From positions 310,001 through 374,000 of the forward strand of contig NZ_PKFN01000009.1 of NCBI RefSeq assembly GCF_002933395.1: a stretch of DNA of 64,000 nucleotides, written 5' to 3'. The notes beneath the pieces are model-generated. The model saw only the letters and a program-made list of their open reading frames with translations. It had not been told where the DNA came from and ran no database searches. This DNA is from Yoonia maritima (GTDB taxonomy: Bacteria > Pseudomonadota > Alphaproteobacteria > Rhodobacterales > Rhodobacteraceae). How positions within the stretch are numbered: the stretch's first letter is position 1; every line of letters starts with the position of its first letter. The translations under genes and the position numbers were made by a program. This document shows, in pieces, positions 1,904-55,277 of the stretch.

Positions 1904-2896
1904 ATGACGAATGAAATACGACTAAAAGAGCTGGAAAAAGAACGGCACATTGGCAGTGCAGGGGTAAGTATCGAGAGAGATGTTCCTCAAATTGATATGT
2001 CTGATTTTCATGCGCGCCGGGCTGAAATATCAGAAAGTTTGTGGGAGGCAGCAACGGACATTGGCTTTTTCCAGTTGGTCAATCACGGCATTCCGCAAAG
2101 CCTAATCGACGAAGCGTTTGATCGTTCGGCAGCATTTTTTGATCTGGACGCGCAGGACAAAACAAAATTTCCGCTTAAGCCTGGCACTAATGCGGGGTGG
2201 GAATACAAAGCGCAAGTACGGCCGTCCACAGGAACGGCTGATCAAAAAGAAAGCTATCAAATCACGTTGCCACGCATGGCCAACCTTTGGCCCCGCGAGT
2301 CTGATGTGCCTGATTTTAAACCCACAATGCTAGCGTTCGAACGTATGAATTGGGCTTTGGCGATGCGTGTTTTGTCATGCTTTACGTCGAAGTTAGGTGT
2401 CGCGGATGACCTGTTTGTCGAAGGCCATGATCCGCTATCGCCACAATACCAATCGACGCTGCGCCTGATCCATTACCTCGGGATGGAAGATGCTTCACCA
2501 GAAGATTTCAAATACTGGCGCGCAGGGGCACATACGGATTTTGATTGTCTGACCTTGCTGCATCAAAAACAGGGGCAGGGTGGATTACAGGTTTGTCCCG
2601 GCAAAGATGCGGATGGCAGGGTTCTGGGATGGACAGACGTGCCCCCGGTCGGTGGGGTTATCACCTGTAATATTGGCGATATGTTGATGCGTTGGAGTGA
2701 TGACAAATTGTTATCAAACCTTCACCGCGTGCGCATGCCAAAGCCGGATGAAAGTCTGGGGCCACGCTATTCAATCGCTTATTTTGCGCAGGCCAATATG
2801 GATACTGTGCTTCAAGGACCCGAAGGCATTTACGAGCCGATAACGGGCCATGACTATATCCAAATGCGCCTTGGCGCGAATTTCGGGAAAAAGTGA
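1904..2896 (+). CDS. 2-oxoglutarate/Fe(II)-dependent oxygenase, isopenicillin N synthase family
   Basis: A 330-residue non-haem iron oxygenase. It has the N-terminal DIOX_N region (FFQLVNHGIP, residues about 55-64) and the jelly-roll core with the iron triad H210-x-D212 (GAHTDF) and H274 (LHRVRMP). R288-x-S290 (RYSIAYF) would bind the 2-oxoglutarate carboxylate. Members hydroxylate or desaturate small molecules at the cost of O2 and 2-oxoglutarate. The ATG at 1904 is chosen because AAGGAGGG lies just upstream at 1893-1900; a GTG 60 bases earlier in the same frame lacks such a site. The gene faces the same way as the catabolic operon beginning at 3420, where a second, distant member of the family is encoded. 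The substrate is unknown; a pyrimidine or other N-heterocycle is a guess from the neighbours. Confidence 0.85.
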   Translation: MTNEIRLKELEKERHIGSAGVSIERDVPQIDMSDFHARRAEISESLWEAATDIGFFQLVNHGIPQSLIDEAFDRSAAFFDLDAQDKTKFPLKPGTNAGWEYKAQVRPSTGTADQKESYQITLPRMANLWPRESDVPDFKPTMLAFERMNWALAMRVLSCFTSKLGVADDLFVEGHDPLSPQYQSTLRLIHYLGMEDASPEDFKYWRAGAHTDFDCLTLLHQKQGQGGLQVCPGKDADGRVLGWTDVPPVGGVITCNIGDMLMRWSDDKLLSNLHRVRMPKPDESLGPRYSIAYFAQANMDTVLQGPEGIYEPITGHDYIQMRLGANFGKK

Positions 2897-2934
2897 TGGC
2901 GCGTATCAACTCTTTTGATGGTGCAAGCCTTGGG

Positions 2935-3324
2935 TCACTGCAGTCTGGCTGTAACCTCAATCTCGACCACGAATTCGGGGCGGGTAAAGCCACTGACGAT
3001 CATCAAGGTCGAAGCAGGCAAATGCGGAATATCCGCAAGCCAAACATCGCGCGCGGCCATGTAGCCCGCCATGTGACTGCGGTCGGTGACGTAGGCGTGC
3101 ACCTTCAACACGTGGGATTTATCTGTTCCCGCCTGCGCCAGGATTTCGTCGATGTTCGCAAAGATCAATTGCGCCTGTGCTTGGGCCCCATCGGGGATCG
3201 TGCCGTCAACGTCCAGCGCCAACTGTCCCGACGTCAAAACGAGGCCAGACTGCGTATCTGCGATGCCGTGTGCGTAGCGGGCAAAGGGTGGCGCCATGGT
3301 TTTAGGGGTTACGCTTTTGATCAT
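2935..3324 (-). CDS. RidA/YjgF/YER057c/UK114 family protein
   Basis: A 129-residue single-domain Rid protein of normal length. Family features are the SGQLALDVDGTI turn, the AQAQLIFANIDEILAQAG helix, the VLKVHAYVTD strand and the final VEIEVTA strand. Archetypal RidA hydrolyses reactive enamine/imine intermediates using an arginine just before the VEIE strand. Here that segment reads GFTRPEFVVEIE, so the catalytic arginine is shifted or absent, as in several other Rid subfamilies. Such proteins often sit in catabolic clusters for nitrogen compounds. It is transcribed divergently from the ABC transporter operon at 3420 and convergently with the oxygenase, ending 38 bases from it. Confidence 0.85.
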   Translation of the reverse strand: MIKSVTPKTMAPPFARYAHGIADTQSGLVLTSGQLALDVDGTIPDGAQAQAQLIFANIDEILAQAGTDKSHVLKVHAYVTDRSHMAGYMAARDVWLADIPHLPASTLMIVSGFTRPEFVVEIEVTARLQ

Positions 3325-3419
3325 CGGTCACATCCTTTTGCGGGGTTTCCAGTGAAACATCGCGCAACTTCAAACCAAAAAACAATACCTAAATCACTGT
3401 TCAATATGGAGAAAATGTT

Positions 3420-4409
3420 ATGAAAAATCTTATCGCAATGTCATCTTTCACTGCATTATGCGCAACTACCGCATTAGCAGATACGACCGATGTATCGTTT
3501 GGTACGAACTGGTTGGCGCAGGCAGAACATGGTGGATTTTATCAGGCAGTGGCCGATGGCACCTACGCGGAATGCGGTCTGAACGTCAGCATCGTTCAGG
3601 GCGGCCCACAGGTGAACAACCGTGCTTTGCTTTTGGCTGGGCGTATTGATTACCACATGGGTGGTGACTTGACGGGCGTCTTTAACGCCGCCGAAGAGAA
3701 TATCCCGGTTGTCGCTGTCGCCGCAATGTTTCAGAAAATTCCCCAAGTTCTGATCACGCATCCCGGTGCGGCAACCTCCTTTGAAGATCTCAAAGACTTG
3801 ACGCTTTTGATTGGGGACAATGGTTATCAGGGTTTTTACCAGTGGATGATCGCATCTTACGGCTTCACCGCCGAGCAACGCCAACCTTACACGTTTAATC
3901 CCGCGCCATTTCTAGCAGACGAAACTATGGCGATGCAGGGTTACCTATCATCTGAACCATATTTGATTGAAAAAGAAGCTGGCTTCACCCCAGAGGTATT
4001 TTTGATCGCTGATGCTGGCTATTCTACCTATGCCACGACCATCGAAACCATGGCTGATACAATCGCCAACAAACCCGACGAAGTGACCTGTTTTGTCGAA
4101 GGGTCTATCCTTGGCTGGTATAATTATCTGTACGGCGACAATGCTGCTGCGAACGCGATGATCATGGCTGACAATCCTGAAATGACACAGGATAAAATCG
4201 ACTACGGTATTTCGAAAATGATCGAAGCCGGTATCGTGATTTCTGGCGATGCCGAGACCATGGGTATCGGTGTCATGACCGATGAAAAGATCGCGGATTT
4301 CTATGACAAGATGGTCGATGCTGGCGTGATTTCCGCAGGCCTTGATTATAGTGCGACCTATTCGACCGCATTTGTCGGCAATGGTCTTGGTGTCGAATTA
4401 GCAGACTAA
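3420..4409 (+). CDS. ABC transporter substrate-binding protein, NMT1/THI5-like
   Basis: A 329-residue periplasmic binding protein with signal peptide (NLIAMSSFTALCATTALADTTD). The NMT1/THI5/SsuA fold is recognisable from FGTNWLAQAEHGGFYQAVADGTY, QGGPQVNNRALLLAGRIDYHMGG and the SSEPYLIEKEAGF hinge region. Relatives bind pyrimidines (thiamin precursors), taurine, sulfonates or nitrate. GGAG lies about seven bases before the ATG. It is the first gene of a rightward operon with its ATPase and permease, followed by a deaminase-like hydrolase and several oxidoreductases, which favours an N-heterocyclic ligand. A stable hairpin after the stop probably raises its level over the membrane components. 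Confidence 0.85.
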   Translation: MKNLIAMSSFTALCATTALADTTDVSFGTNWLAQAEHGGFYQAVADGTYAECGLNVSIVQGGPQVNNRALLLAGRIDYHMGGDLTGVFNAAEENIPVVAVAAMFQKIPQVLITHPGAATSFEDLKDLTLLIGDNGYQGFYQWMIASYGFTAEQRQPYTFNPAPFLADETMAMQGYLSSEPYLIEKEAGFTPEVFLIADAGYSTYATTIETMADTIANKPDEVTCFVEGSILGWYNYLYGDNAAANAMIMADNPEMTQDKIDYGISKMIEAGIVISGDAETMGIGVMTDEKIADFYDKMVDAGVISAGLDYSATYSTAFVGNGLGVELAD

Positions 4410-4421
4410 ACCGCACCAAAA

Positions 4422-4446
4422 TGAGGGTGCGGCTGTCGCACCCTCA
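4422..4446 (+). promoter_or_regulatory. intercistronic stem-loop after the substrate-binding protein gene
   Basis: TGAGGGTGCG (4422-4431) and CGCACCCTCA (4437-4446) form a perfect 10-bp stem with a five-base loop between the binding-protein stop and the ATPase start. No T-run follows, so it is better read as an mRNA-stabilising or attenuating hairpin than as a full terminator. Such hairpins are common after binding-protein genes made in excess. Confidence 0.6.
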
Positions 4447-4462
4447 CATCGGAGAATTTTGA

Positions 4463-5248
4463 ATGACTGTTAATCGTGCCCCTCTGCGCGAACGCCCAGA
4501 GCTTCTAAAGATGTCGCACATTGAAAAGACCTTTCGCGGTGACGTGGTCGCCCTGAAAGATATGAACCTTACGGTGAACCAAGGCGATTTTATTTCGCTG
4601 CTCGGTCCGTCAGGTTGCGGAAAATCCACTGCGTTGCGATTGGTCGCAGGTCTTATGCGACCAACCAACGGCGTAATCGAATGGAGCGGTGGCCAAGGCG
4701 AGGGCGATCTTGGTGTTGTGTTCCAAGAACCAACTCTGATGCCGTGGGCCAAGGTGAAAGATAACGTATGGCTGCCATATCGGCTGCGCGGGAAAAGCTA
4801 TTTTGAAGTCAAAGACGAGGTGCTGCAGGCACTTAAGCTTGTCGGATTAGAGCAGTTTCAAAACGCGTACCCACGTGAACTATCGGGCGGCATGAAAATG
4901 CGTGTCGCAATTGCGCGGGCCATGGTCACTAAGCCGCGATTGATCTTGATGGACGAACCTTTTGCCGCGCTTGATGAAATTAGCCGCCACAAGCTGAACA
5001 ATGACCTTTTGGCGTTACGCGATGCCGTCGGTTGTACAGTTATTTTTGTTACCCATTCCGTGTTTGAATCGGTGTTTTTATCTGATCGCATCGTTGTGAT
5101 GGCTGCACGTCCAGGCCGCGTTATTCGGGAACTGAACGTCGAAGCACCTTACCCGCGCACAGAAGAATTTCGTACATCCGCAGACTATGCCGCGTTTGCG
5201 CGCGAAGCATCCGATGCGCTTCATCAGGCTATGGAGGTCGCAGTATGA
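4463..5248 (+). CDS. ABC transporter ATP-binding protein, nitrate/sulfonate/taurine type
   Basis: A 261-residue cytoplasmic ATPase that drives the importer. Walker A (GPSGCGKST) is near residue 48, the Q-loop reads VVFQEPTLMPW, the signature is LSGGMKMRVAIARA near residue 139, Walker B with the catalytic glutamate is LILMDEPFAALDE near residue 160, and the switch histidine is in FVTHSVFE. This matches the SsuB/TauB/ThiZ group. A GGAG ribosome site precedes the start and its end overlaps the permease start by four bases. Confidence 0.9.
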   Translation: MTVNRAPLRERPELLKMSHIEKTFRGDVVALKDMNLTVNQGDFISLLGPSGCGKSTALRLVAGLMRPTNGVIEWSGGQGEGDLGVVFQEPTLMPWAKVKDNVWLPYRLRGKSYFEVKDEVLQALKLVGLEQFQNAYPRELSGGMKMRVAIARAMVTKPRLILMDEPFAALDEISRHKLNNDLLALRDAVGCTVIFVTHSVFESVFLSDRIVVMAARPGRVIRELNVEAPYPRTEEFRTSADYAAFAREASDALHQAMEVAV

Positions 5249-6102
5249 GCCGTGAAAATTCTCAGATGATTGAAGACAAAAGTGTCGATATCGAAGAAGA
5301 AAATATTGCCAGAAAAGAACGGCTTTTTGCCATTGCACGCTGGACGTTGCCATCATTGATGATGGTGCTGTTTATCGGTGGCTGGCAAGCCTATGTGACG
5401 ATTGCACAGGTTCCGCATTACATTTTGCCCTCACCCTTGTTGATCGCGAAAACACTGGTCGAAGACTGGTCACTTCTTTGGCCAGCGATGCTGATGACCG
5501 GGCGTTTGACGGTGCTTGCGTTGCTTTTTGCTGTCATTGGTGGCTTGGTCATCGCAGTTTCATTTACACAGTCAAAACTGGTCGAAATGGCTATGTTTCC
5601 CTATGCGGTGATCCTGCAGGTGACGCCAGTTGTTGCCATTGCGCCTTTGCTACAAGTTTATGTCGATAATGCCTTTGTTGCAGCGTTGCTTTGTGCATGG
5701 ATCGTGGCGTTTTTTCCGATTTTGTCCAACACAACAATTGGACTGAAATCGACAGATCACAATCTCGAAGACTTGTTCACAATCTATGGCGCAACTCGGT
5801 GGCAAAGGTTGCGGTATCTATCTGCCCCGTCGGCGCTGCCCTACTTTTTAGGCGGGCTCAAAATTGCGGGGGGCTTGGCGTTGATCGGCGCGGTTGTTGC
5901 GGAATTTGTCATCGGCCGCGCGGGTACCGGGCTTGGCTTGGCGTCAACGCTTCTCGAGGCGTCTTATCGCTTTAACTTTGGGCGGCTCTATGCGGCGCTC
6001 ATTCTGATCTCAGTCATGGGGGTGGCGATCTTTGGTTTGATGAGCCTGATCAGTCACCTTTGTCTTTATCGCTGGCACGAAAGTGCCCTGAAACGAGAAT
6101 GA
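5245..6102 (+). CDS. ABC transporter permease, SsuC/ThiX type
   Basis: A 285-residue inner-membrane permease with about six predicted membrane segments. A charged N-terminal tail (residues 1-30) precedes the first helix (WTLPSLMMVLFIGGWQAYV). The cytoplasmic EAA-like loop that contacts the ATPase is visible as DLFTIYGATRWQRLRYLSAP followed by LPYFLGGLKIAGG. It overlaps the ATPase gene by four bases, and its stop overlaps the next start in ATGA. It forms the channel of the NMT1-type importer; substrate unknown. Confidence 0.9.
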   Translation: MSRENSQMIEDKSVDIEEENIARKERLFAIARWTLPSLMMVLFIGGWQAYVTIAQVPHYILPSPLLIAKTLVEDWSLLWPAMLMTGRLTVLALLFAVIGGLVIAVSFTQSKLVEMAMFPYAVILQVTPVVAIAPLLQVYVDNAFVAALLCAWIVAFFPILSNTTIGLKSTDHNLEDLFTIYGATRWQRLRYLSAPSALPYFLGGLKIAGGLALIGAVVAEFVIGRAGTGLGLASTLLEASYRFNFGRLYAALILISVMGVAIFGLMSLISHLCLYRWHESALKRE

Positions 6103-7394
6103 ATATGGATTTTAAGACACTTCCCAAAGGGCAATTTACGTTGCGCAATGTGACAGTACCCGCATGTTTATTAGGACGAAACGGCTACCTAATCCACGTG
6201 GATATCGGTATTGATGACGGCAAAATAACGGCGGTTACTGATACTGTGGATCGCGCATTGCACCAAGAAACTGTCGACATGCAAGGGGCGATGATTTTGC
6301 CTGCCTTTGTCGATGCGCACACCCATTTGGACAAAGGTCACATCTGGCCACGTGCAAGCAACCCTGACGGGTCGTTCTGGAGCGCGAAAGACACGGTCAT
6401 GGCGGATCACGCCAATTGGACCGCCGATGATGTTTTCGCGCGTGCCGATTTTTCACTGCGCTGTGCCTATGCGCATGGGACCCGTGCGGTGCGTACCCAT
6501 CTGGATTGCCCTCCGGATCAAGACGAAATTTCGTGGCCAGTATTATCTGCTTTGCGGGAAAAATGGGCCGGAAAAATCGCGCTACAAGGTGCAAGCCTAT
6601 CTACCAGCATCGTTGCTGACATTGATGGTCGTTTTTTGCGCACGGCCGATCTGGTCCAAGAACACAAAGGCGTTTTGGGCATGGTTACCTTGCCGATGGA
6701 CGGGCTTGATCTGTTCTTGCGCAAGTTCTTTACCATTGCTGGTGAACGCGGGCTTGATGTGGATTTTCACGTTGATGAAACGATGGATCATTCGGTCGAG
6801 ACATTGCGCGATATTTGTGCCGCAAAGCAGGCGACAGGATATACTGGGCGCGTTCTGGTTGGGCATCTGTGTTCACTATCGACCCAAAACGAAGCCCGCG
6901 CATTAGACACGCTAGACAAGGTGGCTGACGCCGGTCTGGACGTTGTCAGTCTACCCATGTGCAACATGTATTTGCAGGACCGTCATGCCGGGCGTACGCC
7001 GCGCAATCGCGGCGTCACGCTTGTTCATGAAATGAAGGCGCGCGGTATTTCTGTCAGCTTTGCGTCGGATAACACTCGTGATCCGTTTTATGCCTATGGC
7101 GATTTGGACATGATTGAGGTTCTGCGCGAAGCCACACGTATTGCCCACCTTGACCATAGCGGACCCGATTGGATCAAATCCTTTAGCGCCACGCCCGCAC
7201 TGGCCTGTGGGTTTGACGTGGCTGGCCTGACTGTTGGTGCGCCTGCGGACCTTGTGGTGTGCCGCGCGCGCAGTTGGACCGAATTTATGGCGCGCCCTCA
7301 ATCCGACCGCATCGTGTTGCGTGACGGCGTGCAAATCGACCGGACGTTACCGGATTATTCTGAACTTGATCACTTGTTTAAGGCTACGACATGA
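6099..7394 (+). CDS. cytosine-deaminase-like amidohydrolase
   Basis: A 431-residue amidohydrolase-superfamily enzyme. The metal and catalytic residues lie where they do in bacterial cytosine deaminase: H74 and H76 (DAHTHLDKGH), H224 and E227 (DFHVDET), H256 (GHLCSL) and D324 (SDNTRDPF). The substrate-contact segment that holds a glutamine in CodA (near residue 156 there) reads differently here (LQGASLSTS), so the ring substrate may not be cytosine. It should remove an amino group from, or open, an N-heterocycle in the cytoplasm. The start at 6099 is set by the ATGA overlap with the permease stop; it is likewise coupled to the oxidase gene downstream. Confidence 0.8.
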   Translation: MNMDFKTLPKGQFTLRNVTVPACLLGRNGYLIHVDIGIDDGKITAVTDTVDRALHQETVDMQGAMILPAFVDAHTHLDKGHIWPRASNPDGSFWSAKDTVMADHANWTADDVFARADFSLRCAYAHGTRAVRTHLDCPPDQDEISWPVLSALREKWAGKIALQGASLSTSIVADIDGRFLRTADLVQEHKGVLGMVTLPMDGLDLFLRKFFTIAGERGLDVDFHVDETMDHSVETLRDICAAKQATGYTGRVLVGHLCSLSTQNEARALDTLDKVADAGLDVVSLPMCNMYLQDRHAGRTPRNRGVTLVHEMKARGISVSFASDNTRDPFYAYGDLDMIEVLREATRIAHLDHSGPDWIKSFSATPALACGFDVAGLTVGAPADLVVCRARSWTEFMARPQSDRIVLRDGVQIDRTLPDYSELDHLFKATT

Positions 7395-8794
7395 CCCCCA
7401 ATATGACGGCCGCAAAAGCGGCGCTTTCACACCTTGATGTCGAAGAAAACCCACACGCTATTCGCACCGCATCGCGTGATTTCTTTTGGTATTCTCCGGT
7501 GCTGAAGGCGCGGATGGATCATCTATTGGCAGATTTCGTGGTGCGCCCGCGCAACGAGGCCGAGGTAATCGAAATTCTTAAGGTGTGTTACGAACATGAC
7601 GTCCCAGTTACGACACGTGGTGCAGGTACTGGGAACTACGGTCAGGCGATGCCAATGCGCGGCGGCTGTGTCATGCATCTGGTACACATGAACCAAGTCA
7701 CATCCTGCGAACCGGGCCGTGTTGTTGTGCAGCCGGGGTGCTTGCTAAAAGACCTAGATGCCCATTGTATTGCACATTGCGGCCATGAGTTGCGGATGTT
7801 TTCATCAACCTGGGCCACGGCGACCGTGGGCGGGTTTGTTGCCGGTGGGTCTGGTGGGGTTGGTTCGGTCACTTGGGGGCAGCTGCGTGATTTGGGCAAT
7901 ATTATCCGCCTACGGGTTGTCACGATGGAGGCAGAACCACGGGTTCTTGAATTCCGCGGAGAAGAGCTCGCGCGGGTGTCACATGCGTATGGTACAAACG
8001 GTATTATTACCGAGCTCGAACTACCATTAGCGCCTGCGTATGATTGGGTGCATTGCTTTGTCGCGACCAAAGACTTTGCCGCAGCCATGGAGTGTGCCGA
8101 AGGATTAGCGAACGAAGATGGGGTGCTGCTTAAGATCGCTTCAGTCTACGAAGCACCTGTGGCCAAGTCGTATTTCCAACGTGTTTCTCCACATGTGGCC
8201 GAAGATGACGCGCTGGTAGGGTTGATGGTTGCCCCACAAAGCATGGATGCCTTGGTGACGTTTTTGACCCGCCGCCCAGAGCTGTCGTTGATCTATCGTT
8301 CTGACGATACGGATTGGCCGCGCAATCCCGGTTTGGTCTTTGAATATGGCTGGAACCACACCACGCTGCGTGCGCTGAAATTTGATCCTAGCATTACATA
8401 TTTGCAGGTGCGCTATGCCTATCCCGATCATCACGCCTTGATCGAAGAAATGCGCGCGGCTTTCCCAGGGGAAGTCTTGCAACATCTCGAAGCGATCCGC
8501 GTGAATGGAAAAGTGTCGTTTGCGGGTTTGTCGCTGGTCAAATTTACGACCGAAGAACGCCTAGATGAAATTATCCGTATTCACGAAAACGCAGGCGCGC
8601 AAATCTTCAACCCACACCGCTATACATTGGAAGAAGGGGGGCGCCAGCATTCTGACCAACGCCAGTTGTCTTTCAAAAAAGAGGCCGATCCAAAGGGGCT
8701 TTTGAACCCGGGAAAAATGATTTCATTCGACACACCAGATTGGGATTACGCTAAAATATACGACTACCCATCCATGACACCAAAGGAGGCATAG
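7391..8794 (+). CDS. FAD-binding oxidase/dehydrogenase, GlcD/VAO type
   Basis: A 467-residue flavoprotein of the vanillyl-alcohol-oxidase/GlcD fold. The PCMH-type FAD domain starts with VVRPRNEAEVIEILKVC and contains the pyrophosphate loop TTRGAGTGNYGQ near residues 74-85 and the VVVQPGC strand. The C-terminal end has NPHRYTLEEGG and the common DPKGLLNPGK signature. Relatives oxidise hydroxy acids, alcohols or amines. The reaction here is unknown; it may act on a product of the amidohydrolase or the oxygenase. It overlaps its upstream neighbour by four bases and its stop directly abuts the next start. Confidence 0.82.
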   Translation: MTPNMTAAKAALSHLDVEENPHAIRTASRDFFWYSPVLKARMDHLLADFVVRPRNEAEVIEILKVCYEHDVPVTTRGAGTGNYGQAMPMRGGCVMHLVHMNQVTSCEPGRVVVQPGCLLKDLDAHCIAHCGHELRMFSSTWATATVGGFVAGGSGGVGSVTWGQLRDLGNIIRLRVVTMEAEPRVLEFRGEELARVSHAYGTNGIITELELPLAPAYDWVHCFVATKDFAAAMECAEGLANEDGVLLKIASVYEAPVAKSYFQRVSPHVAEDDALVGLMVAPQSMDALVTFLTRRPELSLIYRSDDTDWPRNPGLVFEYGWNHTTLRALKFDPSITYLQVRYAYPDHHALIEEMRAAFPGEVLQHLEAIRVNGKVSFAGLSLVKFTTEERLDEIIRIHENAGAQIFNPHRYTLEEGGRQHSDQRQLSFKKEADPKGLLNPGKMISFDTPDWDYAKIYDYPSMTPKEA

Positions 8795-9373
8795 ATGCGT
8801 GTTTTAGTTTTATTTGCCCATCCTTGCCCAGAGAGTTTTAACGCGGCGGTGCACAATGTTGTAGTTGAAACGTTGGAAACCAAAGGTTGGGACGTTGATG
8901 ATTGTGATTTGAATGCAGAGGATTTTTATCCTGTCCTTTCGGAACTAGAGCGCCGTGAATATCACGATACGCCAAGCAACATTGATAAAGTGCGCCCCTA
9001 TGTCGAACGACTGCAGGCCGCTGATGCGATGGTCATGGTGTTTCCTGTATGGAACTTTGGATATCCTGCGATCCTCAAGGGATTCATTGATCGGGTCTTT
9101 CTGCCCGGTGTCAGCTTTCATTTGGCTGATGGTGGTATCCGACCGGGGCTGACAAACATTAAAAAATTTGCTGCCTGCACGACATATGGCGGTACGCGGT
9201 TTCGGGCGTTTTTGAACGGTGATCCACCGCGTAAATGCGTCACGCGCCATATTTGGTATGCCTGCGGTATGCCAAAGAAACGGTATATCCCGCTGTACGA
9301 TATGAACAACAATCAAACGCCAGCGCTTGAAGCGCACCTTGACCGCGTACGCCGCGAGATGGAGGCGTTTTGA
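8795..9373 (+). CDS. flavodoxin-fold NAD(P)H dehydrogenase (quinone), first copy
   Basis: A 192-residue flavodoxin-fold oxidoreductase of the NQO/KefF/MdaB type. The FMN phosphate-binding start is LVLFAHPCPESFNAAV (residues 4-19) and the flavin-stacking loop is FPVWNFGYPAILKGFIDRVFLPG (about residues 82-104). Such enzymes transfer two electrons from NAD(P)H to quinones or azo and nitro compounds. It is about the same length and layout as the next gene, so the pair may form a heterodimer or act in sequence. The start follows immediately after the oxidase stop, with AAAGGAGG inside the end of that gene. Confidence 0.85.
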   Translation: MRVLVLFAHPCPESFNAAVHNVVVETLETKGWDVDDCDLNAEDFYPVLSELERREYHDTPSNIDKVRPYVERLQAADAMVMVFPVWNFGYPAILKGFIDRVFLPGVSFHLADGGIRPGLTNIKKFAACTTYGGTRFRAFLNGDPPRKCVTRHIWYACGMPKKRYIPLYDMNNNQTPALEAHLDRVRREMEAF

Positions 9374-9969
9374 TGAAGGCGCTTGTTGTTTATTGCCACC
9401 CACGCGTGGAAAGTTTTAATCATGCCATCAAAGATACGGTCATTGCGCGGCTGACGCATGCGGGGGCCGAAATTCGGTTACTGGACCTTTATGCAGACGG
9501 CTTTGACCCACGCATGACGGCACAGGGACTAGAGTTTATCGAAGATAAAACGCTAAACCGCGTCGGGATCGAAGATCATTGTGCAGCGATTGAATGGTGC
9601 GACACGATCATCTTTGTCTACCCAACATGGTGGTACGGTTTGCCGGCTGTTTTGAAAGGTTGGTTGGACCGGGTATTGGTCTCGGGCGTTGCGTTTCAAA
9701 TGCCGCCCCCCGAAGGCGGGGATATCATTCCGAACCTGACGCATATTAAACGGTTCGGGGTTTATACGACCTGCGGTGCCAGTTGGTGGCTCACACGGTT
9801 TATCGGTGCTCCTGGGCGCCGCACATTGATGCGCGGTGTCCGTCTGCTTTTTGCAAAACGGTGCCGCACCAGTTTTGCCGCACATTACCTGATGGACAGT
9901 TCAACCGACGCCAGCCGCAAGGCGCATCTGGCGCGTGTTGCGCGCAAAGTTGATCGGCTTGTTGCATGA
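9373..9969 (+). CDS. flavodoxin-fold NAD(P)H dehydrogenase (quinone), second copy
   Basis: A 198-residue paralogue of the preceding gene: VVYCHPRVESFNHAI at the N-terminus and FVYPTWWYGLPAVLKGWLDR around residue 80-100. The acceptor loop and the C-terminus differ from the first copy, so substrate or partner may differ. The ATG at 9373 overlaps the upstream stop by one base (TGATG); a TTG just before it is less likely. It may recycle a flavin or quinone for the oxidase, which is inference. Confidence 0.85.
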   Translation: MKALVVYCHPRVESFNHAIKDTVIARLTHAGAEIRLLDLYADGFDPRMTAQGLEFIEDKTLNRVGIEDHCAAIEWCDTIIFVYPTWWYGLPAVLKGWLDRVLVSGVAFQMPPPEGGDIIPNLTHIKRFGVYTTCGASWWLTRFIGAPGRRTLMRGVRLLFAKRCRTSFAAHYLMDSSTDASRKAHLARVARKVDRLVA

Positions 9970-9992
9970 TCGCATATTGGAAAGGCTAGAAA

Positions 9993-10916
9993 ATGGTTCC
10001 GATTTTAGACTGGAATGAATTCACCAGCGCGCCCGATGCTTTTACCGCAAAATTGGGCCCGATTTGTCGTGACCATGGTTTTTTCGTGATCAAGAACCAC
10101 CCGTTATCGTCATCGTTAATCAATGATATGTTCGCACAGGGCGACATATTTTTCGCACTGCCTGACGCGGAAAAGAAACCGCTGTCTATTGGCCTTAATC
10201 CACACAATCGTGGATGGGCGGCGCAAGGTACGGAAAGCCTTGATGAAACGTCAGGGCAGATGGATCAAAAGCAGGCTTTTAACATTGGTTATGACCTTGC
10301 TGCGGATGATCCACGCATAATTGCCGCTGAGCCATTTCGCGGCGTGAATGTCTGGCCCGATTTGCCTGGCTTTCGTGATACGGCCTTGGCGTATTTCGAC
10401 GCGGCTTTAGCAATGGGGATTCAATTACATCAGGCTTTTGCAGCAGATTTAAACTTGCCGCCCGACTATTTTGATCGCCATTTTGATGCTCCCATGGCGA
10501 CGTTGCGTTTGTTGTCGTATCCCAAAGGGAATGCCGAACAGGATGCCACCATCGCGGCAGGTGCACATACCGATTACGGGTCGATTACCTTGCTGATGAC
10601 GGATGGTGCACCGGGGTTACAGGTGCGGCCACGCGGGCAAGATTGGATGGATGTTCCCCAAGTGGACGGGGCCATGATCGTTAATATCGGTGACTGTTTG
10701 ATGCGTTGGAGCAACCGCGTCTACGTCTCGACCCCGCACCGGGTACTTGCGCCGCCGCGCCCGCGACGGTCAATCGCGTTCTTTTTAGACCCAAATCCTG
10801 ACAGCGTGATCAAGGCCCTGCCCGGAACAGGTGACCCACACTATCCCCCAATCACGGCCGCCGATTATCTGCGCGCGCGTTTGGATGCGACATATATTGC
10901 GAAGGAACCATCATGA
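9993..10916 (+). CDS. 2-oxoglutarate/Fe(II)-dependent oxygenase, isopenicillin N synthase family, second copy
   Basis: A 307-residue oxygenase with the same architecture as the gene at 1904 but clearly diverged. FFVIKNHPLS marks the N-terminal domain. The iron ligands are H192 and D194 (GAHTDYGS) and H249 (TPHRVLAP), and RRSIAFF supplies the 2-oxoglutarate arginine. GGAAAGG precedes the start. Fungal thymine-7-hydroxylase belongs to this family, so hydroxylation of a methyl-pyrimidine is one testable idea in this context. The next gene overlaps by ATGA. Confidence 0.85.
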   Translation: MVPILDWNEFTSAPDAFTAKLGPICRDHGFFVIKNHPLSSSLINDMFAQGDIFFALPDAEKKPLSIGLNPHNRGWAAQGTESLDETSGQMDQKQAFNIGYDLAADDPRIIAAEPFRGVNVWPDLPGFRDTALAYFDAALAMGIQLHQAFAADLNLPPDYFDRHFDAPMATLRLLSYPKGNAEQDATIAAGAHTDYGSITLLMTDGAPGLQVRPRGQDWMDVPQVDGAMIVNIGDCLMRWSNRVYVSTPHRVLAPPRPRRSIAFFLDPNPDSVIKALPGTGDPHYPPITAADYLRARLDATYIAKEPS

Positions 10917-11695
10917 GAAACCTCGATTGGGCTGATCGGTGCGCCCCTGATTTCAAAGCCATTGATCCGCAAACGGCCATCGCTATTTTGCCAACGGCTG
11001 CGATTGAACAGCATGGGCCACATCTGCCCGTTGGCACGGATACGATGATCATGCAGGGCATGCTTGATGAATTTCGTGCGCAATGCCCTGATGATCTTGA
11101 TCCGTGGATTTTGCCAATTCAGGCGGTTGGAAAGTCAAACGAACATCTGTGGGCGCGTGGCACATTGACTTTGACAGCCGCGACGGCCTTGGCTGCTTGG
11201 ACGGAAATTGGCCTATCTGTCGCGCGTGCAGGGTTCAAAAAAATTGTTATCGTCAATAGTCACGGGGGAAATCTGGATCTTATTTCTATTTTGTCACGCG
11301 AATTGCGTGTTCAGGCGGGAATGCTTGCGGTGAAATGCCAATGGGGCAGTTTTGGTCATCCAGAAGGCATGTATAGCGCGCATGAACTGGCTTATGGCAT
11401 CCATGGCGGGGATGTTGAGACATCTTTGATGCTGGCTATGCGTCCCGAATGTGTTGATATGTCGGGTGCTAAGAATTTTGTTTCAAATGCTGAAACCGAT
11501 GTGATCCCGCCGACAGGGTCGATTAGCCGAGGCTGGATCGCGTCTGATCTCAACCCAGATGGTACGGTTGGAGACGCATCTATCGCAACCGATCAGAAAG
11601 GTATTGAGACGCGGAAGCATCAAGTGGAAGGATTTATCAATCTTTTGCGCAGCGTGCAATCTGCCGCACTGCCACGGGAGAGTGCTTTGCCTTGA
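10913..11695 (+). CDS. creatininase-family amidohydrolase
   Basis: A 260-residue metal-dependent amidase of the creatininase/ArfB/MftE family. The metal motif is E32-x-H34 with D43 (IEQHGPHLPVGTD), H117 lies in VNSHGGN, and E169 in HGGDVETS, a small variation on the usual HAGExETS. Members hydrolyse cyclic amides or formamides such as creatinine and pyrimidine formamides. As last gene of the operon it may open a lactam or imide ring. The converging phosphomannomutase gene ends 72 bases beyond; no clear terminator is visible between them. Confidence 0.85.
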   Translation: MRNLDWADRCAPDFKAIDPQTAIAILPTAAIEQHGPHLPVGTDTMIMQGMLDEFRAQCPDDLDPWILPIQAVGKSNEHLWARGTLTLTAATALAAWTEIGLSVARAGFKKIVIVNSHGGNLDLISILSRELRVQAGMLAVKCQWGSFGHPEGMYSAHELAYGIHGGDVETSLMLAMRPECVDMSGAKNFVSNAETDVIPPTGSISRGWIASDLNPDGTVGDASIATDQKGIETRKHQVEGFINLLRSVQSAALPRESALP

Positions 11696-38775: not shown

Positions 38776-39849
38776 TTACTGCGGGATTTCGCCGGTTAGG
38801 CCTTCAACGAAGAAGTTCATGCCTGCCAGTGTACCATCATCAGCAGTTTCACCGTCAGCCAGCCAAGCAGATCCGTCTTGTTTGTTCAGTGGACCAGTGA
38901 ATGCGTGGTATTCGCCAGAGGCAAGGCTATCGCGCAAGGCTTCTGCCGATGCTTTTACCTCGGCTGGTACTGCGTCAGTGATTTCACCAATGCCAACCAT
39001 GCCAGAGCCGATGCCGTCCCATGTGCTTGTGCTTTCCCATGTACCGTCGATGACGGCTTGGGTGCGCGCGATGTAGTATGGGCTCCAGTTGTCGATGATT
39101 GATGACACGCGTGGGAACGGACCGAATTCAGCCATGTCTGATGCTTGGCCAAATGTCACAACATTGCCAGCGGCCTGCGCTGCGGCCTGTGGCGCGGTTG
39201 AGTCTGTGTGCTGCAGGATCACGTCAGCGCCTTGTTCGATCAGAACGGTCGCTGCTTCGGCTTCTTTTGCAGGGTCGAACCATGTGTATGCCCAGACGAT
39301 TTTGAATTCGACGTCAGGGTTTACGGCCTTAGCTTGGACATAAGCTGCGTTGATGCCACGGATAACCTCGGGGATTGGGAAAGACCCGATATAACCGATG
39401 ACGTTGCTTTCGGTCATGTGACCAGCGATGTGGCCCTGAACAGCACGGCCTTCGTAGAAACGTGCAGAATAGACAGACACGTTGTCGGCCTGCTTATAGC
39501 CAGTCGCGTGCTCGAACTTCACGTCAGGGAATTTTTCCGCAACGTTGATCGTTGGATCCATATAGCCGAACGACGTGGTAAAGATCAGGTCAGCACCGCC
39601 AAGTGCCATTTGCTGTAGAACGCGTTCTGCGTCCGCACCTTCTGGTACGTTTTCAACGAAGACAGTTTCGACGGCATCGCCGAATGCTTCTTCTACAGCC
39701 AGACGGCCTTGGTTGTGCTCGTATGTCCAACCGCCGTCGCCCACTGGGCCGACGTAGATAAAGCCAACCTTGGTTGGGTCTTCAGCAAAGGCTGCTGTTG
39801 AAAGGCTCGCGGCAAATGTTGCCCCGGCCATAATTGATTTGATAGTCAT
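38776..39849 (-). CDS. BMP-family ABC transporter substrate-binding protein
   Basis: A 357-residue PnrA/Med/BMP-type binding protein that carries nucleosides or purines to the permease. A signal peptide (MAGATFAASLSTAAFA) precedes VGFIYVGPVGDGGWTYEHNQG, the hallmark start of the family, then DLIFTTSFGYMDP and the ADVILQHTDSTAPQAAAQ segment. No lipobox is seen, as usual for the Gram-negative branch. AAGGGG lies six bases before ATG 39849, which is preferred to an ATG at 39855. It closes an operon with xanthine dehydrogenase, so xanthine, hypoxanthine or urate are likely ligands. Confidence 0.87.
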   Translation of the reverse strand: MTIKSIMAGATFAASLSTAAFAEDPTKVGFIYVGPVGDGGWTYEHNQGRLAVEEAFGDAVETVFVENVPEGADAERVLQQMALGGADLIFTTSFGYMDPTINVAEKFPDVKFEHATGYKQADNVSVYSARFYEGRAVQGHIAGHMTESNVIGYIGSFPIPEVIRGINAAYVQAKAVNPDVEFKIVWAYTWFDPAKEAEAATVLIEQGADVILQHTDSTAPQAAAQAAGNVVTFGQASDMAEFGPFPRVSSIIDNWSPYYIARTQAVIDGTWESTSTWDGIGSGMVGIGEITDAVPAEVKASAEALRDSLASGEYHAFTGPLNKQDGSAWLADGETADDGTLAGMNFFVEGLTGEIPQ

Positions 39850-39873
39850 ACTCATCCCCTTGGTGGTGACGCC

Positions 39874-40788
39874 TCAACGCGAGGCATGGAAAGATTGGCC
39901 CAGTGATCCCGGCGCCCGTCCAGCACGCATAATAACCAGAACGGCTATTGTTGCCAGATACGGCGACATGGAAAGATATTCGACCGGGATCGCCATCCCG
40001 GCTGCTTGTAAGTTTAGCTGCAACACGGTCACGCCGCCAAACAAATAGGCGCCAAGCAAAAGCCGCAGTGGTTTCCAGCTTGCAAAGACCACAATCGCAA
40101 GCGCGATCCAGCCGGCACCTGCGGTCATGCCTTCGGTCCATTGCGGTACGCGAACAAGGCTAAGGTAAGCACCGCCAAGTCCAGCACAGGCCCCGCCAAA
40201 CATAATGGCCAGCATCCGAACGCGGATAACGTGATAGCCTAACGCATGTGCCGCTTCGTGGTTTTCACCGACTGCACGCAAGATCAATCCCGCGCGGCTG
40301 TATTTCAGAAACGACCAGACAGCGATGACAATCGCCAGCCCAACGTAGACCATTGGATCATGCTGAAACACAATTGGGCCAATAACTGGAATATCGCCAA
40401 GCAACGGAATGTGCCAATCAGGGAAATCCGGGGCTTTGATCCCGATATAGCTTTGCCCCATCAACGCCGACAGGCCTAGCCCAAATAGCGTGAGCGCAAG
40501 GCCCGTGGCGACTTGGTTCGATAATAGAAATTGGGTGAGGAAACCAAACAGCAGTGACAGTATCGCACCACCGATCGCGGCACCAATAAAGCCAAGCACG
40601 GGAGACCCGGTATTGACCGCGACGATAAACCCGCAAACGGCACCGGTGATCATCATACCTTCGACACCAAGGTTCAGAACGCCAGCGCGTTCAACGATCA
40701 ATTCGCCGACTGACGCTAGGATGATCGGGGTTGCTGCCACCATTAGTGACGCAAGCAAAAGGATGGGGTTGATTGCAGTCCAGTCCAT
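39874..40788 (-). CDS. BMP-type ABC transporter permease, second subunit
   Basis: A 304-residue inner-membrane permease of the YufQ/NupC-like branch (branched family 2). The diagnostic stretch is ATPIILASVGELIVERAGVL followed by NLGVEGMMITGA, then LLFGFLTQFLLSNQVATGLA, VGENHEAAHALGY and FGGACAGLGGAYLSL. About eight to ten membrane segments are predicted. The start at 40788 is set by the TGATG overlap with the small membrane protein gene upstream. Confidence 0.88.
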   Translation of the reverse strand: MDWTAINPILLLASLMVAATPIILASVGELIVERAGVLNLGVEGMMITGAVCGFIVAVNTGSPVLGFIGAAIGGAILSLLFGFLTQFLLSNQVATGLALTLFGLGLSALMGQSYIGIKAPDFPDWHIPLLGDIPVIGPIVFQHDPMVYVGLAIVIAVWSFLKYSRAGLILRAVGENHEAAHALGYHVIRVRMLAIMFGGACAGLGGAYLSLVRVPQWTEGMTAGAGWIALAIVVFASWKPLRLLLGAYLFGGVTVLQLNLQAAGMAIPVEYLSMSPYLATIAVLVIMRAGRAPGSLGQSFHASR

Positions 40789-41096
40789 CACATCGCTTCC
40801 TGATTTAATGACAATCCAAGTGCCGCGCCACACAGGAGACCGGACCACGTACCTAAGATGTACATTAGTTCTTGCCGAAATTTGCCCTGCTGTAATTTCG
40901 TTAAGGCGTAAGCAAACCCAAAGAAAGGTGCGCCCAAGAGGATTGCAGTTATCCAAATTAACCTAAGCGCATCCCCACCACCTATATGAAATGGTGTCAT
41001 TAGTATAAGGGCGAATAGTGTACCGAGTTGTGTGAACGTCGCTGTAACCATCAAGCTGAAACTGATCATCGCCGGCAAGCAGAAGTGCTTTATCAT
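40788..41096 (-). CDS. small membrane protein of unknown function inside the transporter operon
   Basis: A 102-residue hydrophobic protein with three likely membrane segments: about residues 8-31 (LPAMISFSLMVTATFTQLGT onward), 44-66 (LIWITAILLGAPFFGFAYAL) and 80-98 (ILGTWSGLLCGAALGLSL). A basic loop KLQQGKFRQELM lies between the second and third. I do not recognise the family. It overlaps the upstream permease by four bases and the downstream permease by one, so all three are translated together. A role as accessory subunit of the importer is inferred from place alone. Confidence 0.7.
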   Translation of the reverse strand: MIKHFCLPAMISFSLMVTATFTQLGTLFALILMTPFHIGGGDALRLIWITAILLGAPFFGFAYALTKLQQGKFRQELMYILGTWSGLLCGAALGLSLNQEAM

Positions 41097-42172
41097 ATGA
41101 CCCGCGCCCTTCTAAACGTTACGCGGTAGTTGCTTAGAACATCTACCATCAACAAGAAGAACAGCAGCATCCCTTGCATCAGTTGGATCGCTGCGCCGGG
41201 TAGGCCAAGGTTGGATTGCGCAATCTCGCCCCCGATATAAGTCAGGGCCATCAGGCCTGCTGCCAGCAAGATGCCGATGGGGTGAAGGCGACCAAGGAAG
41301 GCGACAATAATCGCGGTGAAGCCGTAGCCGACATTGAAATCAATGCTAATCTGCCCAGCCGGGCCTGCGACCTCGAATAGACCAGCGGCACCTGCAAGGC
41401 CGCCAGAAATACCCATGCAGATTAGGATCAAGGTGCTTGGGTTTACGCCAGCAAAGCGGGCGGCGCGGGGGCTTTGGCCCGCAAGGCGCACGTTAAAGCC
41501 AAACAGATGGCGCGACAGAGTTACATAGGCAAAGATGACGGCGATCAGGGCAACGACAACACCCCAATGCATGCCCGCATTTTCTGATATCCAGCTGGTG
41601 GCGCTGTCGTATTTGGCTAAATTCCGCGATCCTGGAAAGCCCATGCCGTCAGGGTTACGCAGTGCGCCCAGCGCCATAGATGCCAGCAATTGTTCCGCTA
41701 CATAGACCAGCATAAGCGACACTAAGATTTCGTTCGTGTCGAATTTGACTTTCAAAATCCCTGGGATCAGCGCCCAAAGCGTACCTCCAAGCACCCCTGC
41801 AGCGATCATCATCGGAAAGATGAATATCGATTCAGTTGGATAAAATGCCAGCCCAACAGCCGCACCGCAAATTGCGCCGACGATATATTGCCCTTCGGCG
41901 CCGATGTTCCAAATACCTGCGCGAAAGCCAAAGGATAGCCCAATCGCGATCAGCACAAGCGGTGCGCCTTTTATCAAAAGCTGCGGGCGGTAGAACCACG
42001 CGAATTCGGAAAACAGCGGATCAAAGAAAATCGTGCGGATGGTTTCGAACGGGTCCTTGCCCAGCGCCGCAAACAATAGCCCACCACATATCATCGTCAG
42101 CAATACTGCAAAGATTGGGGCGGCCAGTGTCCAGACGCGCGAAGGCTGCGCACGTTTCTCGAGCATAATCAT
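41093..42172 (-). CDS. BMP-type ABC transporter permease, first subunit
   Basis: A 359-residue permease of the YufP branch. It has the long first periplasmic loop after the N-terminal helix, then LLIKGAPLVLIAIGLSFGFRAG, IWNIGAEGQYIVGAICGA, LWALIPGILKVKFDTNEIL and GLAGAAGLFEVAGPAGQI. About ten membrane segments are predicted. GAGGA lies upstream of the ATG at 42172. It pairs with the permease at 39874 to form the channel. Confidence 0.88.
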   Translation of the reverse strand: MIMLEKRAQPSRVWTLAAPIFAVLLTMICGGLLFAALGKDPFETIRTIFFDPLFSEFAWFYRPQLLIKGAPLVLIAIGLSFGFRAGIWNIGAEGQYIVGAICGAAVGLAFYPTESIFIFPMMIAAGVLGGTLWALIPGILKVKFDTNEILVSLMLVYVAEQLLASMALGALRNPDGMGFPGSRNLAKYDSATSWISENAGMHWGVVVALIAVIFAYVTLSRHLFGFNVRLAGQSPRAARFAGVNPSTLILICMGISGGLAGAAGLFEVAGPAGQISIDFNVGYGFTAIIVAFLGRLHPIGILLAAGLMALTYIGGEIAQSNLGLPGAAIQLMQGMLLFFLLMVDVLSNYRVTFRRARVI

Positions 42173-42189
42173 GCGGCCATCCTCGCTTT

Positions 42190-42213
42190 GGTCAAAATAC
42201 TCCCGCCGGAGGC
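42190..42213. other. short intercistronic element with a compact GC dyad
   Basis: Between the ATPase and permease genes lies GTCAAAATACTCCCGCCGG followed by AGGC. The CTCC-N-GCCGGAGG core could fold into a small hairpin. From memory, similar strings recur between genes in Rhodobacterales genomes, but only one copy is in this window, so repeat status cannot be shown here. Confidence 0.3.
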
Positions 42214-42217
42214 AGCG

Positions 42218-43741
42218 CTACACATCAACATGGGCGACCTCCATATCATGGGCACCGCCAAGCATCAGGCCGATTTCTTCGACCGTGAGGCCCTGCGCTG
42301 GGCGTGGGTCTGATAACCTACCTTCGTTCAGTGCAGCAAAGCGGTCAGAGATTTCCATCAATTCGTCCAAGTCTTGCGAAATACAGATCACGGCGGTGCC
42401 TTTGGCGGCCAGATCAAGAAGTGCCTGACGAATAGAGGCTGCGGCGGATGCGTCAACACCCCATGTCGGCTGGTTTACCACCAGAACATCAGGGGTTTGC
42501 ATGATCTCGCGGCCGATCACGAATTTCTGCAGGTTCCCGCCAGACAGTGACCGGGCTGTGTTCTGTGGGCCAGGGGTCCGCACGTCAAAGGTGCTGATGA
42601 CGTCCTCGGCAAAGCTGCGTGCCTTGCGCCAGTTTACGAAACCTTTGTTGACCAGTTTCTGGCGCGTTGTCGCGGTTAGAACGGCGTTTTCGGTTAGGCT
42701 CATGTCGGGGGCGGCAGCGTGTCCCATCCGTTCTTCTGGCGCGGTCAAAAGGCCAATTTTGCGTCGGGCGTTGGGGCCAAGTTGGCTAATGCTTTGCCCC
42801 TGATAATTTACCATGCCTTTGGCGGTACGCATTTCGCCTGAAAGCGCTGCGACCAATTCGTCTTGGCCGTTGCCAGCAACACCACCGATGCCCAGCACTT
42901 CGCCCTTTTGCACCTCAATAGAAATATCGCGTAGGGCGGTGCCAAAGCGGTGTGGTGCCTTTGCCGACAGCCCCTGAAGTGACAGGACCGTTTCGCCCGT
43001 TGGCCGCGCGGCACGTTCCGGCACAAGAAGCGCGGACCCCACCATCAGCTCTGCCATATCGCGTGCGCTTGTCTCGCGTGGATCACAGGTGCCAACTACT
43101 TGGCCCAACCGCAGCACAGTCGCGTTTTCGCACAGGGCCCTAATTTCTTCTAGCTTATGTGAGATGTACAAGATCGCGGTGCCTTCGGCGCTGAGCTTGC
43201 GCAGGGTTTTGAATAGGATGTCGACCTCTTGCGGGGTCAGAACCGAGGTGGGTTCATCCATGATCAGCAGTTTGGGGTCTTGCAGTAGACAACGAATGAT
43301 TTCGACCCGCTGGCGTTCACCGGCTGACAGTTCGCCAACAATCCGCGAAGGATCAAGCGGTAGCCCATATTGGTCGGAAACGGCACGCACGCGTTCTGCG
43401 ATTTCGCGTTGGGGCGGTGGGTTTTCCATGCCAAGTGCAATGTTTTCAGCGACGTTCATCGCGTCGAATAGCGAAAAATGCTGGAATACCATTGCTACGC
43501 CTGATGCGCGGGCGGCGCGTGGTTCGGCAGGCGCATAGGGTGCGCCATTCAGTGTCATAGTGCCGCTATCTGGTTTCACCAGCCCATAGATCGTTTTAAC
43601 CAATGTCGACTTGCCCGCACCGTTTTCGCCAAGCAGCGCGTGGACTTCGCCGGGTGCGATTTCGAACGACACATCCTTATTGGCGACCACACCGGGGTAG
43701 GCTTTGGTCAGCCCGGTCAGGGCAAGCAAAGGTTGGTTCAT
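42218..43741 (-). CDS. ABC transporter ATP-binding protein, tandem-domain nucleoside/sugar type
   Basis: A 507-residue ATPase with two fused nucleotide-binding domains, as in RbsA/MglA and YufO. Domain 1 has Walker A GENGAGKST, signature LSAGERQRVEI and Walker B LLIMDEPTSVLTP. Domain 2 has a degenerate Walker A (GVAGNGQDELVAALSG) and the signature LSGGNLQKFVIGRE, which is normal for this class. It energises the BMP-type importer. It overlaps xdhC by four bases, tying transport to xanthine oxidation. Confidence 0.92.
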   Translation of the reverse strand: MNQPLLALTGLTKAYPGVVANKDVSFEIAPGEVHALLGENGAGKSTLVKTIYGLVKPDSGTMTLNGAPYAPAEPRAARASGVAMVFQHFSLFDAMNVAENIALGMENPPPQREIAERVRAVSDQYGLPLDPSRIVGELSAGERQRVEIIRCLLQDPKLLIMDEPTSVLTPQEVDILFKTLRKLSAEGTAILYISHKLEEIRALCENATVLRLGQVVGTCDPRETSARDMAELMVGSALLVPERAARPTGETVLSLQGLSAKAPHRFGTALRDISIEVQKGEVLGIGGVAGNGQDELVAALSGEMRTAKGMVNYQGQSISQLGPNARRKIGLLTAPEERMGHAAAPDMSLTENAVLTATTRQKLVNKGFVNWRKARSFAEDVISTFDVRTPGPQNTARSLSGGNLQKFVIGREIMQTPDVLVVNQPTWGVDASAAASIRQALLDLAAKGTAVICISQDLDELMEISDRFAALNEGRLSDPRPAQGLTVEEIGLMLGGAHDMEVAHVDV

Positions 43742-48127: not shown

Positions 48128-48288
48128 ATTGTAAACCTGCCGCCTTACCAAAACAAATATCCCAGCCGTAAACGTCGATGCGGCGTAGACGCTTTGGCTA
48201 AACTGGCGTCCATGAAAGCGCTGTAGGGGCGATTTAGCAAGAGGAAATACACCATGTTGCGCTGAATTTTTGACTTAATGGTCAAAAA

Positions 48289-55213: not shown

Positions 55214-55277
55214 ACAATTTGTGATGATGGGTTGCGCGGCCTAACCTTTCCTTGTGAACAGCTTGGGGACCGCGTTT

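Follow-up and report, generated by a model that had tools for sequence, protein, structure and literature searches.

A gene island in Yoonia maritima that probably imports and dismantles a guanine- or pterin-like ring, adjoining a xanthine-riboswitch dioxygenase module

What is taken up and degraded by the gene island found near the start of a 64,000-nucleotide stretch of the Yoonia maritima genome? This stretch (‘the window’; G000:C10:310001-374000, in a genome of 3.67 Mb) carries three units side by side: a riboswitch with an isopenicillin N synthase (IPNS)-like oxygenase gene, ox1, on the plus strand; a minus-strand gene of the Rid/YjgF family; and a nine-gene plus-strand operon (3420–11695), running from a solute-binding protein to a creatininase-family hydrolase. 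A preliminary description, made from the sequence, read the island as a catabolic set for a substituted N-heterocycle, with a methylated or hydroxymethylated pyrimidine as its specific candidate; all ten genes that it listed lie at the positions and belong to the families it named, the minus-strand Rid gene and the riboswitch having been overlooked. Our analysis indicates that the island probably imports and dismantles a guanine- or pterin-like ring. We infer with reasonable confidence that the substrate is either a pterin or a purine; the narrower reading that we place first, in which the operon takes up a fused 2-amino-4-oxopyrimidine and opens its ring, the likeliest such substrate being the pterin portion of folate, is more tentative.

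Judged by their coordinates, the operon genes abut or share 4 bases, except at two gaps of 53 and 23 bases. The Rid gene (2935–3324, minus strand) separates ox1 from the binding protein, so that ox1 falls outside the operon; a plus-strand open reading frame (ORF) overlying the Rid gene (2893–3423) gave no family match.

The grouping of the operon genes is far beyond chance. A genome scan with codA, the gene for the operon’s CodA-like amidohydrolase, gave 563 relatives; we kept the 80 best, and hence the closer ones, and among these counted the 63 loci with at least 5.2 kb on either side of codA, setting aside the 17 with shorter flanks. The count among these 63 loci is 61 for the binding protein, ATPase, permease, flavin adenine dinucleotide (FAD) protein and either flavodoxin-type protein, 52 for the creatininase and for Rid, 46 for the second oxygenase (ox2) and nine for ox1; a pgm-like downstream neighbour, serving as flank control, is found in none. 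Complete nine-gene operons are seen in 36 loci, rising to 51 if ox2 is disregarded, and the eight remaining operon genes stand together with Rid in 42. Co-conservation as a block, on which the preliminary description had made its reading depend, is therefore borne out.

Wider samples extend this picture. Across the class, a CodA match at E≤1e-100 occurs in 18 of 385 genomes (our own included); sixteen of the other 17 were fetched, and 11 of these have a FAD relative on the same stretch as codA, as does the short contig that was left out (G292; locus L018). Orthologues of the FAD gene (E≤1e-120) are present in 62 of 248 sampled family genomes, taken at one genome per genus, so the pathway would be a common capacity. 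The same set appears in PLSDB records of Rhizobium johnstonii pRL12 (there adjoined by PaoABC/XdhC), Pseudooceanicola algae, Sulfitobacter pontiacus and Agrobacterium. Records of a Comamonadaceae strain, Pseudosulfitobacter, Klebsiella (5.4 Mb, probably chromosomal), Rahnella, Pantoea and Agrobacterium F2 hold divergent versions; the operon in its various versions spans Rhizobiaceae, Comamonadaceae and Enterobacterales. Flanking genes gave no functional clue, with no unassigned flank family recurring in more than eight of 96 loci.

We rank a pterin first among the candidate substrates because of the FAD_binding_4 flavoprotein (7391–8794, plus strand). Its best match in the PDB is 6v42/6v43, at 544 bits over residues 4–454, with the next match at 62 bits; Foldseek aligns its predicted model (predicted local distance difference test, pLDDT, 81.9) to 6v42 with 54% identity and a TM-score of 0.91. 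The 6v42 entry carries the title ‘Crystal structure of the flavin oxygenase with cofactor bound involved in folate catabolism’. With 6v42 as query against 398 phylum genomes, we find relatives at 73–76% identity in eight, all from one family, and in three of the eight (loci L161–L163) the creatininase and Rid genes lie on one strand with binding protein–ATPase–permease–codA–FAD–reductase(s) on the other. Neither ox1 nor ox2 was seen in these three loci, and the two that were scanned for the riboswitch (L161 and L162) hold none at gathering score. Downstream of the operon at L161 (12745–17602) come genes for a GcvT-type FAD dehydrogenase, an aminotransferase and a homocysteine S-methyltransferase, which may point to one-carbon metabolism.

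Working along the remainder of the operon, all on the plus strand, the first three genes encode an NMT1/THI5-type solute-binding protein (3420–4409; PF09084, 61 bits), an ATP-binding cassette (ABC) transporter ATPase (4463–5248; PF00005) and a permease (5245–6102; PF00528). The AlphaFold model of the binding protein (pLDDT 92.7) has 3ix1 as its nearest fold (TM-score 0.70 by query, 0.76 by target), and the nearest solved folds overall are formylaminopyrimidine-, thiamin- and Thi5-type proteins; the modelled structure therefore suggests a binding protein of the aromatic-heterocycle type. Taurine, nitrate and sulfonate binders, which the preliminary description had set against its own reading, rank 24th or lower in this fold search, and import of such compounds was rejected. 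Together with the block conservation, the predicted type of binding protein favours the general idea of a catabolic set for a substituted N-heterocycle.

The CodA-like amidohydrolase/deaminase (6099–7394) reaches 582 bits against the NCBIfam PRK07583 cut-off of 403 when scored with a longer start, an alternative in-frame TTG being possible at 6060. Its residues H74, H76, Q163, H224, E227, H256 and D324, equivalent to the metal/catalytic set of Escherichia coli CodA, are invariant in 21 sequences, with Asn at the position of E. coli Asp314. Downstream of the FAD gene come two Flavodoxin_2 NAD(P)H oxidoreductases (8795–9373, PF02525, 115 bits, with quinone reductases as nearest PDB entries; and 9370–9969, PF02525, 116 bits), then ox2, a second IPNS-like 2-oxoglutarate (2OG) oxygenase (9993–10916; PF14226, PF03171), which keeps its HxD...H iron ligands in 53 sequences and has 9ovh (185 bits), 6jyv (155) and thymine dioxygenase (150) as nearest PDB entries. 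The final gene encodes a creatininase-family metal amidohydrolase (10913–11695; PF02633, 214.5 bits against a gathering score of 31.3) with HGGN and EQHG motifs kept in 64 sequences; it scores 65.6 bits against the creatininase equivalog TIGR04448, whose cut-off is 235, and likewise falls short of the MftE equivalog cut-off. In the neighbouring Rid protein (PF01042, 77 bits) a Ser stands at the position of the catalytic Arg105 of E. coli RidA in all 61 aligned sequences, the window’s included, with the Glu120 equivalent kept; on the strength of this replacement the imine-deaminase label is unsafe for the window’s protein.

The substrates and order of reactions that we infer from these families would run as follows. 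The THI5-type ABC system would import the ring, and the CodA-like enzyme would remove its 2-amino group, converting a pterin to the lumazine type; deamination of pterin early in folate breakdown has been proposed in a published report (PMC9513972). The FAD protein would then oxygenate the ring with reduced flavin supplied by one or both of the flavodoxin-type reductases, the creatininase-type hydrolase would open a cyclic amide and the Rid protein might clear a reactive product, with ox2 contributing an optional oxidation. The riboswitch and ox1 would form a separate purine-oxidation module, its translation responsive to xanthine or urate.

That riboswitch–ox1 is a module separate from the core operon is apparent from its distribution. 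The gene (1904–2896, plus strand; PF14226/DIOX_N, 3e-21; PF03171/2OG-FeII_Oxy, 1.8e-19) encodes an IPNS-like Fe(II)/2-oxoglutarate oxygenase of the riboswitch-associated pcbC type, in which H210, D212 and H274 (HxD...H) are invariant across 10 sequences; its nearest solved relative is thymine dioxygenase 5c3p, at just 95 bits, an ethylene-forming-enzyme relative following at 88. Its leader contains a xanthine riboswitch aptamer (NMT1 RNA, RF03054; 1815–1866, plus strand; 40 bits against a gathering score of 36) with the conserved core GAGUAGAAGC...CAUUGCUC intact, and no other copy appeared in the genome at E≤1; 37 bases lie between the aptamer and the ox1 ATG, with a Shine–Dalgarno sequence, aaggagg, at 1893–1899. 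RF03054 scores above gathering upstream of ox1 in seven of the nine ox1-bearing relatives (L035, L036, L037, L038, L039, L047 and L070). For the other two, L040 has none at gathering score, its match in gene content, G864, having a 31.5-bit copy, and L101 has none. The riboswitch is found in none of 13 scanned loci that lack an ox1 neighbour (L033, L044, L055, L096, L115, L116, L118, L119, L120, L161, L162, L243 and L244).

The same pairing is seen when genomes are searched for the RNA. In the family sample RF03054 is present at E≤0.01 in 14 of 248 genomes, and in all 11 that exceed the cut-off it is accompanied by an ox1 orthologue (63–100% identical), which in G832 lies farther along the same gene run, adjoining a second, weaker riboswitch copy; among the three genomes below the cut-off, G864 has ox1, and none was seen in G892 and G906, the weakest two. 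Across the phylum the RNA passes the cut-off in 17 of 398 genomes; in 13 of the 17, counting our own, an ox1 relative falls inside the 3 kb stretch taken with a copy, with none in the 3 kb stretches of G399, G607, G675 and G725. Because ox1 orthologues accompany RF03054 copies across genomes in this way, we identify ox1 as the pcbC-type dioxygenase of the published riboswitch class. Riboswitch–ox1 modules that stand alone, accompanied by ABC genes and a PRK12393-like amidohydrolase, also occur (L226, L228, L229, L230 and L232), a second, ox2-like oxygenase (37–38%) adjoining ox1 at L229 and L230.

According to Yu and Breaker (2020; PMC7373994), the aptamer binds xanthine with a dissociation constant (KD) of ~3.7 µM and urate with one of ~25 µM, rejects common pyrimidines as well as compounds of the thiamin pathway and of histidine degradation, and behaves as an OFF switch in an NMT1-motif reporter; the linked dioxygenases are there without established function, and the main text makes no mention of lumazine or pterin. 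By its sequence the Yoonia copy would likewise respond to xanthine or urate, and the direction in which it switches may differ. On free folding, the Shine–Dalgarno sequence of the window’s leader pairs with the strand at and after the 3′ side of P1 with probability 0.81, and forcing P1, in folds made without ligand, raises its opening from 0.19 to 0.46. Among 26 leaders, chosen from 38 extracted for having ox1 next to them and a usable start codon, opening on forced P1 rises by more than 0.1 in 11, falls in one and stays within 0.1 in 14; the sequences are related, and the Wilcoxon value for the set is thus not an independent test. Fold stability of the window’s leader is ordinary (z -0.70). 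The predicted geometry could fit ligand-induced (ON) expression, direction being something that ligand-free thermodynamic folding cannot settle.

How closely, then, is this module tied to the core operon? Leaving out our own genome, the FAD gene is present in seven of 13 riboswitch-bearing family genomes against 61 of 247 overall (hypergeometric p 0.02), and in five of 16 against 31 of 397 across the phylum (p 0.005); with our own, preselected genome included the figures become 8/14 against 62/248 (p 0.008) and 6/17 against 32/398 (p 0.001), all four p values ignoring relatedness among genomes. In Klebsiella and Rahnella the riboswitch (63.4 and 61.8 bits, respectively) is followed by genes for a binding protein, an amidohydrolase of the PRK12393 type and a relative of ox1 (54–56%), a module divergent from the core operon and separated from it by a single annotated LysR gene; the Klebsiella amidohydrolase passes the PRK12393 cut-off, and its next best score is to 8-oxoguanine deaminase. 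In Pantoea (L243) the fetched stretch includes the core operon but neither ox1 nor a riboswitch. A compared Yoonia maritima genome, whose codA is 96% identical to the window’s, places xdhA–xdhB–xdhC 0.9 kb upstream of riboswitch–ox1 on the opposite strand, with one small ORF between; these xdh genes are 94–97% identical to the window’s own set (43738–48151), in which xdhA, xdhB and xdhC all exceed their NCBIfam cut-offs. In the window they belong to a purine locus (38776–48151) that also encodes a Bmp/PnrA-type ABC transporter, ~27–36 kb from the island, and at L033 a Bmp-type ABC cluster adjoins the core operon. Elsewhere in the genome (G000:C9:724168-727509) both urate oxidase (Urate_ox_N) and OHCU decarboxylase have matches, which suggest ordinary urate degradation.

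Several observations weigh against a dedicated pterin pathway wired to this riboswitch. The folate label comes from a PDB title, behind which no paper was found in the literature searched, and family scans of the cluster proteins matched neither a p-aminobenzoate–glutamate hydrolase nor the carboxypeptidase G family. The PDB matches of the CodA-like protein are CodA, an AtzC-type enzyme and three cyclic-amidase structures, none labelled a pterin deaminase; an imine-deaminase step by a Rid protein whose sequence lacks the arginine is not secure. The RutR-type TetR (TetR_C_3; YcdC/RutR-type) regulators lying within two distant versions of the operon (L119, 14507–15136; L118, 5524–6168) would equally suit a pyrimidine ligand. 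Finally, riboswitch and FAD gene lie within ~7 kb of each other in just three of the eight family genomes with both (G000, G864 and G948), and in none of the five other phylum genomes with both.

The alternative that survives best, ranked second because of the riboswitch module, is that the core operon degrades a purine (guanine, isoguanine, 8-oxoguanine or their oxidised products) and that ox1 and the operon act in one purine pathway; we regard this as possible, if doubtful. The adjoining xanthine/urate-type riboswitch argues for it, as do the Klebsiella and Rahnella loci, where riboswitch, binding protein, amidohydrolase and ox1 stand beside the core operon, the xdhABC genes near riboswitch–ox1 in the compared Y. 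maritima and the Bmp-type cluster at L033. The genome is, however, already equipped with xdhABC and with urate oxidase and OHCU decarboxylase matches, ox1 is missing from 54 of the 63 core loci and the title of 6v42 names folate.

A methylated or hydroxymethylated pyrimidine such as thymine or hydroxymethylpyrimidine (HMP), the candidate put forward in the preliminary description, comes third, and we now think it unlikely. Thymine dioxygenase is indeed the nearest solved relative of ox1 and the third best for ox2, the nearest folds to the binding protein bind HMP-type compounds and the TetR_C_3 regulators of the two distant clusters would fit. The thymine-7-hydroxylase argument does not, however, carry far: ox1 is an optional neighbour, present in just nine of 63 loci (ox2 in 46), and its relationships say little about the core operon. 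The aptamer type preceding ox1 has xanthine and urate as ligands and does not accept common pyrimidines (PMC7373994), and the FAD relative has been assigned to folate; riboswitch and 6v42 both point to fused purine or pteridine rings, and simple thymine or HMP catabolism was lowered on these results. Thiamin fragments were also considered and rejected, since the sole Rfam match above gathering score in the window is RF03054, which leaves no thiamin pyrophosphate (TPP) riboswitch at that threshold, and since the report on the NMT1 motif has thiamin compounds rejected by the aptamer (PMC7373994). Very unlikely, lastly, is a nitrogen-scavenging set for several unrelated N-heterocycles with no single dedicated substrate: the oxygenases are optional and the extra genes found close to distant versions vary (among them a Rieske oxygenase, TauD, an S15 peptidase and an amidase), but importer, deaminase, FAD protein and creatininase keep a tight order and are repeatedly conserved together, which speaks against it.

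A pterin thus stays our first choice. We would go further only speculatively, to a proposal that we rate as rather unlikely: that the core operon encodes an aerobic pathway, not described before, by which pterins and guanine-type purines alike have their pyrimidine ring opened—deamination, flavin-dependent oxygenation, creatininase-type hydrolysis and an arginine-less Rid—wired to xanthine-riboswitch dioxygenases. If true, the wiring in alpha- and gammaproteobacteria would mean that the riboswitch class serves the catabolism of oxidised purines and pteridines; the Yoonia riboswitch might then be a ligand-induced ON switch, and the class perhaps senses lumazines too. Genes for oxidised-purine degradation were not seen among the riboswitch-associated genes by Yu and Breaker (PMC7373994), and the cluster offers a concrete candidate pathway whose importer, deaminase and flavoenzyme are each open to assay. 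The folate report closes with the question of whether bacteria break down pteroic and deaminopteroic acid, and by what means (PMC9513972).

Two further features of the window were noted in passing. At 1–1331, on the minus strand, a family 5 solute-binding protein gene that matches positions 1–206 only of a 368-position profile adjoins a short minus-strand ORF (55–435) and looks truncated or rearranged; at 55254–61852 a Hydantoinase_A/oxoprolinase-type gene, further ORFs and a DAO-type FAD oxidase may form another N-heterocycle cluster.

How does the island compare with known systems? No description of the full gene set was found in the literature searched, a single collection, the nearest being the list of NMT1-motif genes in PMC7373994. 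The preliminary description’s statement that it knew of no described pathway with this set nevertheless needs amending, now that the nearest solved relative of the FAD protein proves to have been deposited as a folate-catabolism oxygenase and ox1 to be of the xanthine-riboswitch dioxygenase type. The window’s FAD protein is a full-length homologue of the 6v42/6v43 flavin oxygenase, whose kin share the operon order in three loci; 6v42/6v43 was deposited as a folate-catabolism enzyme, whereas the window’s protein is likened to it by sequence and predicted fold. Early deamination of the pterin ring is proposed both here and for the carboxypeptidase G/pterin deaminase route of Variovorax sp. F1 (PMC9513972); the deaminase there is of the Arad3529 type and that of the window of the PRK07583 type, a distinction drawn from description rather than sequence, and Variovorax has a carboxypeptidase G whereas no such family was matched in the window’s cluster. 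The hpx genes of Klebsiella, as cited in PMC7373994, include dioxygenases tied to the oxidation of hypoxanthine and xanthine, a likeness again by description. The published pairing of NMT1 motif and pcbC (PMC7373994) has the same arrangement as here, with RF03054 above gathering score upstream of an IPNS-like dioxygenase, but in the window the riboswitch module abuts a conserved FAD/CodA/creatininase operon, and where the published reporter was an OFF switch, the predicted geometry of the window’s leader could be that of an ON switch.

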